NCBI RefSeq assembly: GCF_009828925.2
Contig: NZ_WUTY02000001.1
Span: forward strand, 4,432,492 to 4,496,491
DNA from: Methylicorpusculum oleiharenae
GTDB lineage: Bacteria > Pseudomonadota > Gammaproteobacteria > Methylococcales > Methylomonadaceae
Length of the DNA: 64,000 nt
Reading direction: 5' to 3'
Shown: positions 3,728 through 8,779 of the stretch, piece after piece
Layout of the letters: each line of letters opens with the position of its first letter
Numbering within the stretch: position 1 is the stretch's first letter
Notes under the pieces: model-generated
Database searches by the model: none
What the model was told of the DNA's origin: nothing
The model's input: the letters and a program-made list of their open reading frames with translations, nothing else
Translations under genes and position numbers: made by a program

Positions 3728-4117
3728 TTACATTTTATGATTTTTCATCATTTGCATCATATGCATATGATGGGATTTCATGAGCTCGATTTGTTGATCT
3801 TTTAATGCTTGTTTTTTAGCTGGGTCGGTTTCCGCAAGAATTTTATTGGAAAGATCATGCATTTTAAGGTCATGTTCTTGCCTCATCTTCATATGTTCCA
3901 TCATTTTGGATTCATCCATGCCGCCCATGCCTCCTTCTTTACCGCCTTCCATACCGGCCATACCGTCTTCTTTACCAGCACCCATGCCGGCCTTATGTTT
4001 CATGGGTTTTTCCATTTTCATATCGGACTTTTGGGGCATAGTGTCTTCCATCGCCACAGCCAGCGGCCCAAACTGGGTCAGCACTAAAAATAAACTGGTT
4101 TTGATTATTATATTCAT
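3728..4117 (-). CDS. Exported Met/His-rich small protein, possible copper binder
   Basis: Not a family I recognise. The product has 129 residues. Residues 1 to about 22 (MNIIIKTSLFLVLTQF then ...LAVA) form a signal peptide; the rest is predicted periplasmic. The mature part is very rich in Met, Lys, Gly and His, with repeated K-x-GMAGM / GGMGGM blocks at about 35-65 and a C-terminal cluster SHHMHMMQMM. Such Met/His clusters are typical of copper- or silver-binding periplasmic proteins; that role is inference. The ATG at 4117 was chosen because GAGGAG lies 8 bases upstream and it starts the signal peptide directly; a longer in-frame start at 4156 would place 13 extra residues before the signal peptide. 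It has its own terminator. Confidence 0.72.
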   Translation of the reverse strand: MNIIIKTSLFLVLTQFGPLAVAMEDTMPQKSDMKMEKPMKHKAGMGAGKEDGMAGMEGGKEGGMGGMDESKMMEHMKMRQEHDLKMHDLSNKILAETDPAKKQALKDQQIELMKSHHMHMMQMMKNHKM

Positions 4118-4481
4118 GGTGTCTCTCCTCGTTAAATTGCATACCGAACATAACACGTTAATTACTATCAGTCATCTGTTGACAAGATCGAATTCATAAA
4201 AATTAGGCACTCTTTTAGTGCTAAAAGCATTTTATGCACCAGAATAATGCAAAATAACGCATCCAACTCATCTTTAGCCTCAGTAAATCCTAATTAATTC
4301 AAGTAATTGCCGCACCGAATGAGTAAGGAACATTTATTGCTAAATAGTGAGCAAATGTGCCCCATTATGAATCGTTCCTATACTTTGTAACCCTCTTTCT
4401 GTCGCAATCAATTAACCGACGTTACCTATTTGTTCAGCAAATGCCCAATTCAACCGACTTGAGTTCATCTGTGCCAACCCA
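4118..4481. other. Divergent intergenic region, promoters not resolved
   Basis: A 364-base AT-rich space between the Met/His-rich gene (minus) and the transporter-kinase gene (plus). It contains an inverted repeat around 4204-4225 (GCACT, loop of five, AGTGC, flanked by TTAG/CTAA). Neither a convincing -35/-10 pair nor a -24/-12 pair could be assigned, and I see no small gene in it. Confidence 0.4.
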
Positions 4482-7400
4482 ATGAGCCGACCCATTCATC
4501 AAACTATTTCAAAAATTCGCCGGGATTATAATTCCTGGGTGGCTGATGAAACGATGGAAGATTACGCGCTCAGATTTGCTCCGCGCAGTTTTCGCAAATG
4601 GTCTGAATTTCAGGTAGCCAATACCGCATTCGGCTCGACATCCTTTTTGGTGCTGGAGGCTATCGGCGGATTTTTGTCCATCAATTACGGATTCACTAAT
4701 GCTTTCTGGGCGATTCTAGTGGTGGGTTTGGTCATTTTTATTACCAGCTTTCCAATCAGCTATTATGCGGCCCGCTATAACATCGACATTGATCTGCTAA
4801 CGCGCAGCGCGGGCTTCGGCTACATTGGCTCTACCATAACATCACTGATTTACGCGTCGTTTACATTCACCTTATTCGCACTGGAAGCCTCCATCATGTC
4901 GCTGGCGCTGGAATTATATTTTCAGATGCCGTTGGCTCTCGCTCATGTGATAAGCGCTGTTCTGGTGATACCGCTGGTGACTTTCGGTGTCACCACGATC
5001 AGTAAATTGCAATTATGGACACAACCCGTCTGGCTCATTATGTTGATTGCGCCTTATGTCGCGGTTTTTATGCATGAACCGGAAGCGCAGTTAACGCTCT
5101 CCACTTATTTCTGGATCGCCGGAAGCGGCAGGGGATTCGATGCATTGTTGTTTGGCAGCGCGGCAACGGTGGCTTTTTCGATGATGGCCCAGATCGGCGA
5201 ACAGGTGGACTTTTTAAGGTTTATGCCTGAAAAAAAACATGAAAACAGATTTCGCTGGTGGGCCGGTGTTTTTGCTGCCGGCCCCGGCTGGATTTTATTC
5301 GGCATGCTTAGACAATTAGGCGGCGCCTTGCTGGCTCATCTGGCAATCCGCAATGGAATCAGCCCGGAGCATGCGCATGAGCCAACTCAGATGTACCAGA
5401 TTGCCTACGGTACGCTTTTTAGTAATCCGGAATGGGTTGCGGCCTGCACTTTATTGTTTGTGATTATCAGTCAGCTCAAGATTAATGTCACCAATGCTTA
5501 CGCAGGATCACTGGCGTGGTCGAATTTCTTCTCCCGCCTGACTCATACCCATCCCGGTCGGGTTATCTGGCTGTTCTTCAATGTCGCCATTGCTTTGCTG
5601 TTGATGGAGTTTGGTGTATTCGGCGCTTTAGAAAAAGTACTGGGCCTTTTTTCGCATATGTCTATCGCCTGGATCAGCGCTGTAGCCGCAGAGTTTTTAA
5701 TCAACAAACCGTTAAAGTTAAGTCCTCCAATTGTCGAGTTTAAAAGGGCCTACCTGCCGGACCTCAATCCGGTTGGCATCATTGCAACCCTCGCCGCTTC
5801 GGTGATATCGATTTTGTCTTATGTCGGTCTGTTTGGTCTATACCCTCAAGCATTTTCGGCTTTTATCGCGCTGGGCCTGGCTTTTCTATTAAGCCCACTG
5901 ATGGCCTGGCGTTTCGGTAACAGACATTATCTGGCACGCGACCGCCATAAAAATAACAGCGCCGCGCATCAAAAATGCAGCATATGCGAAAACCAGTTTG
6001 AACAGGAGGATTTAGCCTATTGTCCGGCCTATTCGGGTTCTATCTGTTCCTTATGTTGTACCCTGGATGCACGTTGTCTGGATGCCTGCAAGCCTGGTTT
6101 CAGGCTGGACGATTACCTGGAAGTGTTTGCCAACCGGATTTTTCCGGCAAATATGTCGCTGCACTCCCGATTAAGATTACTGCGCTTTTTTCTGTTATTC
6201 GGCTTTTTGACAATACTCACCAGCATTTTCATAGGCATTATTTATTACCAGGATTTGTTGGTTGCGCAAAAGTATTTGCCCTCTTTCGACCTCTTGTTAG
6301 CCAATTTCGTCAAAATTTATGCCTCTCTGCTGGTCTTCATCGGCTTGTGTACCTGGTGGTTGATTTTGAATGACGAAAGCCGCCGCTTTGCCCATGAAGA
6401 AACCGCCAAACAAACACAATTGTTATTGATGGAAATCGAGGAACATAAAAAAACCGATATCAAACTGGAGCAGGCTCTAAAAATAGCAGACCAGGCCAAT
6501 AGCGCGAAAAGCCGATTTTTAAGCAATATGAGCCATGAAATAAGAACACCGCTGAACAGCATCATCGGTTATGCCTATGTCTTGCAGAAAGACCCGGCTA
6601 TTCCCGAGCATCGGCGCTCCGCTATCGATATTCTTAAACGCAGCGGTGAACATCTATCCTCGTTAATTGAGGATATTCTGGATATTGCCCGCATCGAAGC
6701 CAGGAAGTTTGAATTAAAATCTGAACCGATCAACTTTCCGGCCTTTATCGAACATCTGGTGAGAATCTACAAAGCTCAAGCAGAAGAAAAAGGCTTGGCA
6801 TTTTGCTGCCAGATCACCCAATCATTGCCGAAACGAATCAAGGGTGATGAGAAGCGCGTACGGCAAATATTAATTAACATATTAAGCAATGCGGTTAAAT
6901 TCACCACTTCCGGAGACATCTTGTTCCGTATCGGCTACAGCGGTGAAGTAGCGACCTTCCAGATAACCGATACGGGCAGGGGTATCAGGGAAGAGGAATT
7001 ACAAAATATTTTCCAGCCCTTTACGCGTTTGATGGATACGGCCGAACATCCTGTTTCAGGCAGCGGCTTGGGCCTCACGATCAGTAAAATTCTGGCAGAA
7101 ATCATGGGCGGCGAACTCACGGTAAAAAGCCGGCCTGAACAGGGCTCTTCGTTTACGGTCCGTTTGTTCCTGCCGAATCTGGGCGGGGATAACCACTTAC
7201 AACGAGAGGCCGACATTACCGGCTATCTCGGCCCCCAAAAAACGATCTTAATCGTGGATGACCAACCTGAACACCGTGATCTGATGTGCTCCATTCTGCA
7301 GCCCTTAAGGTTTAATACATTACAGGCTGACTCGGGAGAAGCCGGCTTATTGGCGGTTGCCAAACAGACCCCTGATTTGATCCTGCTGGATATCAGCATG

Positions 7401-7847
7401 CCGGGCCTGGATGGTGTTGCTACGGCGATACAACTGCGCCAGCAAGGCCATACCTTACCGATCATCGTGTTAAGCGCCAACGCCTACAGTTCAGACCGGC
7501 TTGCCGCTATCCATGCCGGATGCAACGATTTTCTCAGTAAACCGATACAGATCTCGGACCTGCTGTACAAACTCAAACTGCATCTTGCCCTGGATTGGGT
7601 TTACGAAGGCGAAGATGATCCTGACAACAAGCCCGCAGTTGCTATCGTGCTGATTCCTCCCGACCGGGAAGTTCTCGAAATGTTGCAGGCTTTTGTTAGA
7701 ATTGGCGACATTTTAGGATTGAAGGCCGCGATTCACCAGTTGCAAAAAAACGGCAGGATACACGACGGTTTTTCAACAAAACTGATCGCACTGGCTGATG
7801 ATTTTAAACTTTCAGAACTCAAGCAAATACTGACTTATGCAACATGA
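4482..7847 (+). CDS. NCS1-type transporter fused to hybrid histidine kinase and receiver
   Basis: A 1121-residue membrane sensor. Residues ~40-480 look like an NCS1 (nucleobase-cation symport, CodB/allantoin permease type) transporter with about 12 helices. Residues 499-536 hold a cluster of nine Cys including CSIC and CSLCC, resembling a metal-binding knuckle. Two further helices lie at ~565-590 and ~608-628. A HisKA domain follows with phospho-acceptor His685 in NMSHEIRTPLNS, then HATPase_c (N-box NILSNAVKF, G-boxes DTGRGI and GSGLGL), then a receiver with Asp970 in LLDISMPG and a short tail. By analogy with CbrA-type SSS-kinases, the transporter probably senses or imports a ligand; a purine, pyrimidine or hydantoin is only a guess. 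Its ATGA overlap with the next regulator gene indicates a cognate pair. Confidence 0.85.
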   Translation: MSRPIHQTISKIRRDYNSWVADETMEDYALRFAPRSFRKWSEFQVANTAFGSTSFLVLEAIGGFLSINYGFTNAFWAILVVGLVIFITSFPISYYAARYNIDIDLLTRSAGFGYIGSTITSLIYASFTFTLFALEASIMSLALELYFQMPLALAHVISAVLVIPLVTFGVTTISKLQLWTQPVWLIMLIAPYVAVFMHEPEAQLTLSTYFWIAGSGRGFDALLFGSAATVAFSMMAQIGEQVDFLRFMPEKKHENRFRWWAGVFAAGPGWILFGMLRQLGGALLAHLAIRNGISPEHAHEPTQMYQIAYGTLFSNPEWVAACTLLFVIISQLKINVTNAYAGSLAWSNFFSRLTHTHPGRVIWLFFNVAIALLLMEFGVFGALEKVLGLFSHMSIAWISAVAAEFLINKPLKLSPPIVEFKRAYLPDLNPVGIIATLAASVISILSYVGLFGLYPQAFSAFIALGLAFLLSPLMAWRFGNRHYLARDRHKNNSAAHQKCSICENQFEQEDLAYCPAYSGSICSLCCTLDARCLDACKPGFRLDDYLEVFANRIFPANMSLHSRLRLLRFFLLFGFLTILTSIFIGIIYYQDLLVAQKYLPSFDLLLANFVKIYASLLVFIGLCTWWLILNDESRRFAHEETAKQTQLLLMEIEEHKKTDIKLEQALKIADQANSAKSRFLSNMSHEIRTPLNSIIGYAYVLQKDPAIPEHRRSAIDILKRSGEHLSSLIEDILDIARIEARKFELKSEPINFPAFIEHLVRIYKAQAEEKGLAFCCQITQSLPKRIKGDEKRVRQILINILSNAVKFTTSGDILFRIGYSGEVATFQITDTGRGIREEELQNIFQPFTRLMDTAEHPVSGSGLGLTISKILAEIMGGELTVKSRPEQGSSFTVRLFLPNLGGDNHLQREADITGYLGPQKTILIVDDQPEHRDLMCSILQPLRFNTLQADSGEAGLLAVAKQTPDLILLDISMPGLDGVATAIQLRQQGHTLPIIVLSANAYSSDRLAAIHAGCNDFLSKPIQISDLLYKLKLHLALDWVYEGEDDPDNKPAVAIVLIPPDREVLEMLQAFVRIGDILGLKAAIHQLQKNGRIHDGFSTKLIALADDFKLSELKQILTYAT

Positions 7848-8779
7848 AAACTGAACCCCCTTTCCATAACGGGACGGTCATGATTGTCGATGACACCCCT
7901 GGCAATCTTGCTATGCTTTCTGATCTGCTTTTCGAAGCGGGTTATCGCGTTCTGGTGGCTACTGACGGGGTCTCAGCCATCGAACAAATCGGCTTTTTAA
8001 AACCGGACATTATATTGCTGGATGTCATGATGCCGGGTATTGACGGCTTTGAAACCTGTCAACGCTTAAAAGCAGACCCTGCAACTGGCGATATTCCGCT
8101 GTTGTTCATGACCGGCTTGACCGAATTGGAACATTTGCTGAGAGGTTTCGAGGAAGGCGGGCTGGATTATATCGTCAAACCCGTTCGTCCACCTGAAGTG
8201 CTGGCCAGAATTGAAGTGCACCTGAATCAGGCCAGGCAGATGTTACAAGTTCGTATGGCCCTGGATCATAGCGCTGTATCCGTATTAACGGTTAATACAA
8301 GCGGTGAAATCACATGGATGACCGAAGCAGCCAAAACCATCCTCCAATCGTTTTCAGCAGAACACACTGAGTCTGAACAAAATGATCTAGCTTATGCTTT
8401 GCCAATGCCCATTCAAGATTGGATCATGCAAGCAATCAAGCACTTTGTTACAACCGGACCCGATCAGGCAGGGACAGATTTTGCCTATCAAGGCATAGTA
8501 TTGACCATGATGCCTTGTGAACATTCTGCTGAATATCTGCTCTTTCTTTCAAAACGGCAGGAAACATGGGATATGGAAGCGCTGCGGGAGTCACTCGGCC
8601 TGACCGGGCGAGAGGCTGAAATATTGATGTGGATTTCACGCGGCAAAACCAATAAAGAAGTGGGCATCATTCTGGGCAGCAGTCCCCGTACTGTCAATAA
8701 ACACCTTGAACATATTTTCGAGAAGCTGGGCGTATCAACCAGAGCGGCAGCGGTTGCCAAAGCGTTTCAGTCGGGTTAA
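7844..8779 (+). CDS. LuxR-family response regulator with N-terminal receiver
   Basis: A 311-residue DNA-binding response regulator. The receiver occupies residues ~10-130 with phospho-acceptor Asp60 in LLDVMMPG and the conserved Lys in VKPVRPP. A linker of ~100 residues follows (about 135-245), longer than in NarL and possibly a PAS-like fold. The C-terminal GerE/LuxR helix-turn-helix spans ~248-305 (LTGREAEILMW, GKTNKEVGIILG, RTVNKHLEHIF). The start codon overlaps the stop of the transporter-kinase gene (ATGA), so the two are translationally coupled and this is the likely phosphorelay output. Targets cannot be read from the window. The gene runs convergently into the GGDEF-EAL gene. Confidence 0.88.
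   Translation: MKTEPPFHNGTVMIVDDTPGNLAMLSDLLFEAGYRVLVATDGVSAIEQIGFLKPDIILLDVMMPGIDGFETCQRLKADPATGDIPLLFMTGLTELEHLLRGFEEGGLDYIVKPVRPPEVLARIEVHLNQARQMLQVRMALDHSAVSVLTVNTSGEITWMTEAAKTILQSFSAEHTESEQNDLAYALPMPIQDWIMQAIKHFVTTGPDQAGTDFAYQGIVLTMMPCEHSAEYLLFLSKRQETWDMEALRESLGLTGREAEILMWISRGKTNKEVGIILGSSPRTVNKHLEHIFEKLGVSTRAAAVAKAFQSG

Follow-up and report, generated by a model that had tools for sequence, protein, structure and literature searches.

What does a histidine kinase sense when its N-terminal part is built like a transporter, and which genes does it control? These questions are raised by a gene pair in a stretch of 64,000 nucleotides (the window) of the Methylicorpusculum oleiharenae genome (contig NZ_WUTY02000001.1, positions 4,432,492 to 4,496,491). 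The first gene (window 4482-7847, + strand) encodes an NCS1-type transceptor hybrid histidine kinase of 1121 amino acids, here called NHK. As the initial annotation had claimed, a transporter-like domain, a cysteine-rich segment, two further helices, a kinase and a receiver follow one another in a single chain. The second gene (7844-8779, + strand) encodes a response regulator of 311 amino acids with a receiver and a LuxR-type domain (REC-LuxR) and shares 4 bp with the first, in agreement with the overlap and coupling already noted there. We consider it likely that this pair is an NCS1-type transceptor two-component system sensing urea or a small amide and controlling uptake and hydrolysis genes. 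The proposal is made because relatives of the kinase mostly adjoin urea/amide uptake genes that share an operator.

Relatives were compared at two depths. In the genome collection, 251 of 255 pattern-matched stretches encoded a relative, and the best 80 of the 251 were kept as a close set: one from Pseudomonas, the rest labelled as methanotrophs or as unnamed proteobacterial bins. Homologues were found in 53 of 398 proteobacterial genomes, that of M. oleiharenae included. For the wide set, 57 loci were fetched as stretches of about 20 kb at most, and the fragment match G236 (94-aa frame) was left out; a wider alignment of 67 rows joins these 57 to 10 rows of the close set. The kinase was fused in all 57 wide loci. 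The family is widespread and not peculiar to the M. oleiharenae genome.

Genes for a urea/amide ATP-binding cassette (ABC) transporter, formamidase (FmdA) or urease were found near the kinase in 55 of the 57 wide loci. In the two loci without such neighbours, L146 and L172, the sequence breaks off at the end of the contig. Looking for conserved neighbours of homologues, as the initial annotation had suggested, thus led to urea/amide genes; neither these targets nor the operator had been noticed there. Profiles identified them as UrtA-E, FmdA, an FmdB-type zinc ribbon and UreD. In the close set, urea, amide or urease neighbours were present in 50 of 80 loci, and in 41 of the 52 loci with at least 6 kb of upstream sequence. 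A homologue of the regulator (at least 38% identity) was near the kinase in 51 of the 57 wide loci.

The promoters of these loci share a sequence. Expectation-maximisation was run on 40 divergent regions, left from 43 after removal of near-duplicates, and found de novo an 18-bp palindrome, ATACGTCATATGACGTAT. The log-likelihood was 352.5 (best of 25 starts), and a single shuffled set reached 24.7 (12 starts). Among 51 wide regions, 42 of which belonged to the training pool, 43 reached 17 bits or more and 48 reached 9.5 bits or more, the latter a threshold picked after the scores were known. Outside the training pool, all 34 methanotroph porin-urt promoters, which are related sequences, reached 9.5 bits, as did 2.7% of shuffles and 2.7% of 1667 other windows from the same loci. 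At 13 bits or more, the corresponding figures were 33 of 34 versus 0.7% and 1.1%. In 21 of the 34 promoters the operator took a tandem form, in which two dyads overlap at a 16-bp step.

In Methylovulum miyakonense (L018, 9760-9793), the tandem operator forms a perfect palindrome of 34 bp. It precedes the kinase itself by about 200 bp and follows an isochorismatase-family gene and a 526-aa gene for which no family was matched; autoregulation or an extra hydrolase target is possible there. Two tandem operators were present in one locus in L034 (1309-1342 and 9069-9102) and in L082. In L034, one precedes the formamidase gene and the other the porin-like gene, a layout that suggests two operons under one regulator.

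In the M. oleiharenae genome itself, the family is represented by two kinases that share 46% identity. The paralogous pair (C1:4548075, L141) adjoins an amide transporter-formamidase operon, and the exact single palindrome occurs once in the genome (C1:4547840-4547857), beside that operon. Only this exact match was used, because a search allowing two mismatches was uninformative (13 places versus 21 for the reversed control). The tandem operator, searched with up to 3 mismatches, likewise has a single occurrence (C1:3089613-3089646), and the reversed control gave 0. It is placed 70 bp upstream of the opening gene in a porin-like gene-urtABCDE-urease operon, which lies at a distance of 1.35 Mb from the window pair. 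The tandem pattern was written after this site had been seen; its zero mismatches are therefore without weight, and only its uniqueness counts. Urease-alpha was found at no other place in the genome, and the operon is also the only other UrtA locus found. Pfam identified UreA, UreB, UreC, UreE, UreF and a UreG-type gene in it; the "porin" label is weak, with a sub-threshold NCBIfam ExtI match and no Pfam match. On the strength of its promoter sequence and of phylogeny, we regard this operon as the likely target of the window pair.

Several observations weigh against this assignment or against the proposed function as a whole. No urt, fmd or ure genes were found beside the window pair, and the three closest tree neighbours of its kinase are also without a urt neighbour, which leaves phylogeny and the operator as the grounds for linking the pair to the urea operon. 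The window contains no operator above 9.1 bits and therefore shows no sign of autoregulation. Both paralogous regulators might bind both operators. In the close set, 11 of the 52 loci with enough upstream sequence had no urt, fmd or ure genes, and 3 of the 51 wide regions scored below 9.5 bits (L125 and L161, urease-linked, and L153, fmd-linked). The ABC genes near FmdA may carry amides and not urea. One sensor may serve both kinds of genes, because three loci hold amide as well as porin/urea genes. Residue 399 ranked top of 450 columns by mutual information with ligand class, with glycine in 37 of 45 amide-linked versus 2 of 31 urea-linked rows. When relatedness was counted, only 3 independent pairs differed (p 0.25), and this residue is thus only a lead.

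The bare surroundings of the window pair might also mean that it was separated from its urt operon and is now an orphan with a new target. The neighbourhoods of L009-L012 are similarly without urt, fmd or ure matches above 35% identity, except for an operon-less second kinase in L011. We consider such a history very unlikely, since the genome's own urea operon retains the tandem operator, which is the methanotroph form, and no other NHK-type kinase exists in the genome besides the amide-linked one.

A quick tree of 89 sequences, with several long branches, placed the window kinase in a methanotroph clade of 29 rows: 9 urt-linked, 5 urease-linked, 6 fmd-linked and 9 without linkage. When amide- and urea-linked rows alone were counted, the link changed between amide and urea 7 times, or 6 times when the three dual loci were left out; at least 5 of these changes are forced by well-supported branches. 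The scaffold has therefore switched repeatedly between urea- and amide-linked operons. The paralogue L141 clusters with L153 (fmd-linked) and with the tandem paralogues of L011 and L015. Two relatives, L160 (889 aa) and L165 (883 aa), evidently have no receiver, and L172 is cut by its contig. Formamidase is close to both L160 and L165, where urt matches do not exceed 28%; these two split off first in the midpoint-rooted drawing.

The ligand should be bound by the transporter-like domain (residues 28-486; window 4563-5939, + strand), which the initial annotation had assigned to NCS1. The fold agrees with that assignment; sequence models gave at most weak matches to the domain itself. The Pfam NCS1 model, PF02133, gave no match to the domain at E-values up to 10 and none genome-wide at E 0.001, and Pfam, NCBIfam and PDB sequence searches with the whole protein or its first 633 residues named no transporter family. 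Residues 1-494 gave a weak cytosine-permease match (NF008241, a CodB model; E 2.1e-5, 23.5 bits versus a cut-off of 326). In the fold comparison, we used an AlphaFold2 (AF2) model of residues 1-660 built from 81 aligned sequences (predicted local distance difference test, pLDDT, 76.5; predicted template-modelling score 0.76). CodB came first (Z 33.7, root-mean-square deviation 3.5 Å, 392 residues aligned) and the Mhp1 entry 4d1a second (Z 27.3, 4.2 Å, 424 aligned). The best non-NCS1 family had Z 24.7 and SLC5-fold chains about 22-23, so that CodB and Mhp1 stand above the other folds and the comparison favours NCS1 over another transporter family. The Mhp1 entry 2jln, taken alone, had Z 24.5, level with other families. 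The plant urea transporter DUR3 (9vim) was among the structural matches with Z 23.2; many LeuT-fold chains were at the same level, and this match therefore says nothing special about urea.

The profile search for NCS1, empty when PF02133 was used directly, reached the family through a standalone relative. This protein is 25% identical to the window domain (E 4.4e-26) and passes the PF02133 cut-off (36.4 versus 23.5 bits); it also matches TIGR00800, below its cut-off. A joint profile of 3 kinase N-termini and 4 standalone NCS1-like proteins matched CodB at E 9.2e-25. One of the four standalone members, L201, matches CodB alone at E 1.2e-28, and the E-value of the joint profile can therefore not be credited to the kinase sequences. 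With the joint profile discounted, the NCS1 case is carried by the fold and the pairwise bridge. Judged by its modelled fold and this bridge, the window domain belongs to the NCS1 type but has diverged too far for the Pfam model to recognise it.

The initial annotation had asked whether residues for sodium and substrate are kept. K333 (67/67 in the wider alignment) and I334 (66/67) align with T278/T279 of CodB and S312/T313 of Mhp1, which we take to be the Na2 sodium-site positions (the Mhp1 numbering is presumed). The sodium-site residues are thus not kept. Loss of the Na2 hydroxyls lowers the case for a sodium symporter and leaves that for shared descent untouched. Lysine or arginine was also found at position 333 in four standalone NCS1-like relatives, so a basic residue here may mark a wider, sodium-independent NCS1 branch and not the kinases alone; K333 was accordingly dropped as a kinase-specific hallmark. 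E135, aligned to Q121 of Mhp1, is identical in 67/67 rows, as are Q237, E240, Q241, D243, K333, N335 and N338.

These residues bear on whether the domain transports. If it imported urea or amides itself, the signal might follow transport and not binding. The kinase domain has the core residues R108, D243, R246, N338 and Y340 in common with the four standalone relatives, and the basic residue at 333 is what a proton-coupled carrier might have. In CbrA, according to the part of the report consulted, the SLC5 domain takes up histidine and a lysine is proposed to act in sodium's place (PMC13022988). We nevertheless consider flux sensing unlikely for NHK, because a dedicated ABC importer is near the kinase in most wide loci and because a study of an SLC5-kinase chimera found, in the passage available, activation independent of transport (PMC5715377).

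The substrate pocket differs from that of Mhp1 as well. The positions of the Mhp1 Trp pair, presumably W117 and W220, hold L/F131 and M/L234 in the kinase family. With this pair missing and urea/formamide genes as neighbours, the purines and hydantoins that the initial annotation had listed for ligand screens are unlikely to be bound; the urea derivatives on its list came close. A nitrogen-status sensor would be a different explanation of the same linkage. Urea genes are usually under nitrogen control, and the NCS1 chains with solved structures are, by their titles, cytosine and hydantoin transporters, so the domain might sense ammonium, a pyrimidine/allantoin-type degradation product or membrane energization and yet control urea/amide genes. 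This is quite unlikely in our view. The linkage reaches formamidase and urease without a transporter match, the common theme being small carboxamides, and the residues at the two Trp positions leave no aromatic stacking. We therefore retain urea or a small amide as the probable ligand.

Between the transporter and kinase modules lies a cysteine segment (residues 499-536; window 5976-6089, + strand). It holds eight cysteines and not nine as first counted, at 499, 502, 514, 522, 525, 526, 532 and 536 (CxxC-x11-C-x7-CxxCC-x5-C-x3-C). Every one of them is invariant, both in the close sequences (84 of 84, window included) and in the wider alignment (67 of 67). The segment is therefore not due to chance, and its predicted place and conservation in homologues were borne out. 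Mean column conservation (commonest residue) was 0.77 for the segment, 0.70 for the NCS1 domain, 0.63 for the kinase and 0.52 for the receiver. A profile of the segment gave 43 strong matches (at least 61 bits) in 299 genomes, all in frames of this family (894-1247 aa); six further matches below 19 bits look like chance. A mobile domain was considered and rejected, no strong match having been found outside the NHK family in the 299 genomes (scoring covered at most 21 candidates in each genome, and weak relatives may have escaped it).

Zinc is our best guess for this site. The segment folded alone with a pLDDT of 65.5, and its structural matches were all weak: the best Foldseek E-value was 0.15, the best Z (3.9) was for a ribosomal protein chain, and the others were mostly two-zinc cross-brace fingers (PHD, RING, FYVE, ZZ and LIM). 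The only sequence resemblance was to CRIPT (E 0.033; E 1.1 in a second search), which is a zinc-binding protein. Eight invariant cysteines with an adjacent CC pair could also form a redox, iron-sulfur or nitric oxide sensor that gates the kinase. The weakness of the matches that the zinc assignment draws on leaves room for such a sensor, and the nature of these same matches, cross-brace fingers and CRIPT, makes it rather unlikely compared with a structural zinc site.

Two further transmembrane helices follow the segment (residues 560-632; window 6159-6377, + strand), at 560-595 and 599-659 in the AF2 model and at 564-596 and 601-632 by hydropathy. Pfam placed HisKA at 675-740 and HATPase_c at 788-897 (together window 6504-7172, + strand), and a receiver at 922-1031 (window 7245-7574, + strand). 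The phosphoacceptor His685 and N803 are each present in 67 of 67 rows of the wider alignment, and Asp970 of the receiver in 65 of 67, with two gaps. In the regulator, Pfam found a receiver at 12-123 and a LuxR-type helix-turn-helix at 253-306. With these hallmarks and the partner regulator, the window kinase is, as read from its sequence, a hybrid histidine kinase of a two-component system.

From the computed architecture, fold class, cysteine conservation, gene linkage and shared operator, we infer the following course of signalling. Urea or a small amide would bind in the transporter pocket of the N-terminal NCS1-fold domain, and the conformational change would pass through the eight-Cys knob and the two extra helices to the DHp/kinase module. 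The kinase would then autophosphorylate at His685 and phosphate would reach the adjacent REC-LuxR regulator, directly and/or through the internal receiver. The regulator would bind the palindromic operators, either the single ATACGTCATATGACGTAT or a pair of overlapping dyads with a 16-bp step, and would activate, presumably rather than repress, importer and urease or formamidase genes. In M. oleiharenae, the paralogous pair at C1:4548075 would serve the adjoining amide transporter-formamidase operon, and the window pair the porin-like gene-urtABCDE-urease operon.

Plasmids carry relatives of the NCS1-Cys part as well: 525 plasmid records gave a match, and Klebsiella accounts for 342 of these. 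Among the matches listed, they were labelled as ArcB, "response regulator", "ATP-binding protein" or "integral membrane sensor hybrid histidine kinase", or were unannotated. For example, a predicted conjugative plasmid of Klebsiella pneumoniae (L244, 8995-12375; NZ_KY271406.1) encodes a full-length relative of 1127 amino acids, annotated just as "ATP-binding protein". It keeps the eight cysteines (read by eye) and has one more. The locus also holds formamidase-urtEDCBA genes and a 25.2-bit operator, and a REC-LuxR frame follows the kinase.

Two other genes near the kinases had no Pfam match. Divergent from the window kinase, a small Met/His-rich protein with a signal-like start (window 3728-4156, - strand) looks like a metal-handling protein. 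In many methanotrophs, a lipoprotein-like gene of about 275-310 amino acids precedes the kinase (L086, 8949-9878, and relatives; 60 of 80 close loci); no match to this gene was found in the window, L141 or L228.

No description of an NCS1-kinase was found in the open-access literature (titles and abstract openings), where absence is weak evidence, and no dedicated two-component sensing of urea or small amides was found described there. NHK probably represents a class of urea/amide sensor that has not been described before. A fuller picture would be a proteobacteria-wide class of urea/amide transceptors with an NCS1 fold without sodium coupling, a lysine in the sodium site, an eight-Cys metal knob that signals occupancy to the kinase, a dedicated palindromic regulon, a scaffold retuned between urea and amide at least 5 times, and single versus tandem operators that separate the regulons of duplicated pairs. 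We give this whole picture an even chance of being right. If NHK is indeed a urea/amide sensor, the family offers a built-in comparison (urea- versus amide-linked members, single versus tandem operators), with reporters at hand.

Since M. oleiharenae is a methanotroph, the lanthanide-switch kinase MxaY of M. buryatense (METBUDRAFT_1818; key residue E147) was also considered. It was set aside by its description, though not excluded: the words "transporter" and "transmembrane" are absent from the text of its paper as consulted (PMC5018670). In Ectopseudomonas guguanensis G3, a second urtABCDE operon (operon III) likewise has hybrid kinase and LuxR two-component genes (PMC13296017). The likeness is by gene description alone; the part of the source consulted lists the genes and mentions no NCS1 domain, Cys segment, operator or function.

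The ammonium transporter-kinase of Kuenenia (Amt-HK) resembles NHK in that the fold of a nitrogen-compound transporter is joined to a histidine kinase. The fold is Amt there and NCS1 here, and no Cys segment is mentioned for Amt-HK in the portion of the report consulted (PMC5764959). With CodB and Mhp1, NHK shares the overall fold and core motifs, but K333/I334 replace the Na2 hydroxyls, the Trp pair is absent and a kinase is fused.

The closest parallels are CbrA/CbrB and CrbS/CrbR (MxtR/ErdR), in which a LeuT-fold transporter domain is also fused to a histidine kinase. The parallel to CbrA-type kinases with a different transporter family, drawn in the initial annotation, holds: the closest fold is NCS1 (CodB 33.7 versus about 22-23 for SLC5). 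The partner of CrbS is reported, in the part of the study consulted, to be a LuxR-type regulator needing an inverted repeat at target promoters (PMC5715377). NHK differs from CbrA and CrbS in several respects. Its transporter domain is of the NCS1/CodB type and theirs is SLC5; the eight-Cys segment and two helices are at the place of their STAC, for which Pfam gave no match in the window kinase at E-values up to 1 (whether Pfam holds a STAC model was unchecked); and it is linked to urea/amide genes, theirs to acetate or histidine, with a different operator. By analogy, NHK would work like CbrA/CrbS without being shown as a member of the SLC5/STAC group and, if so, would represent a second LeuT-fold route from carrier to kinase, beside SLC5/STAC.

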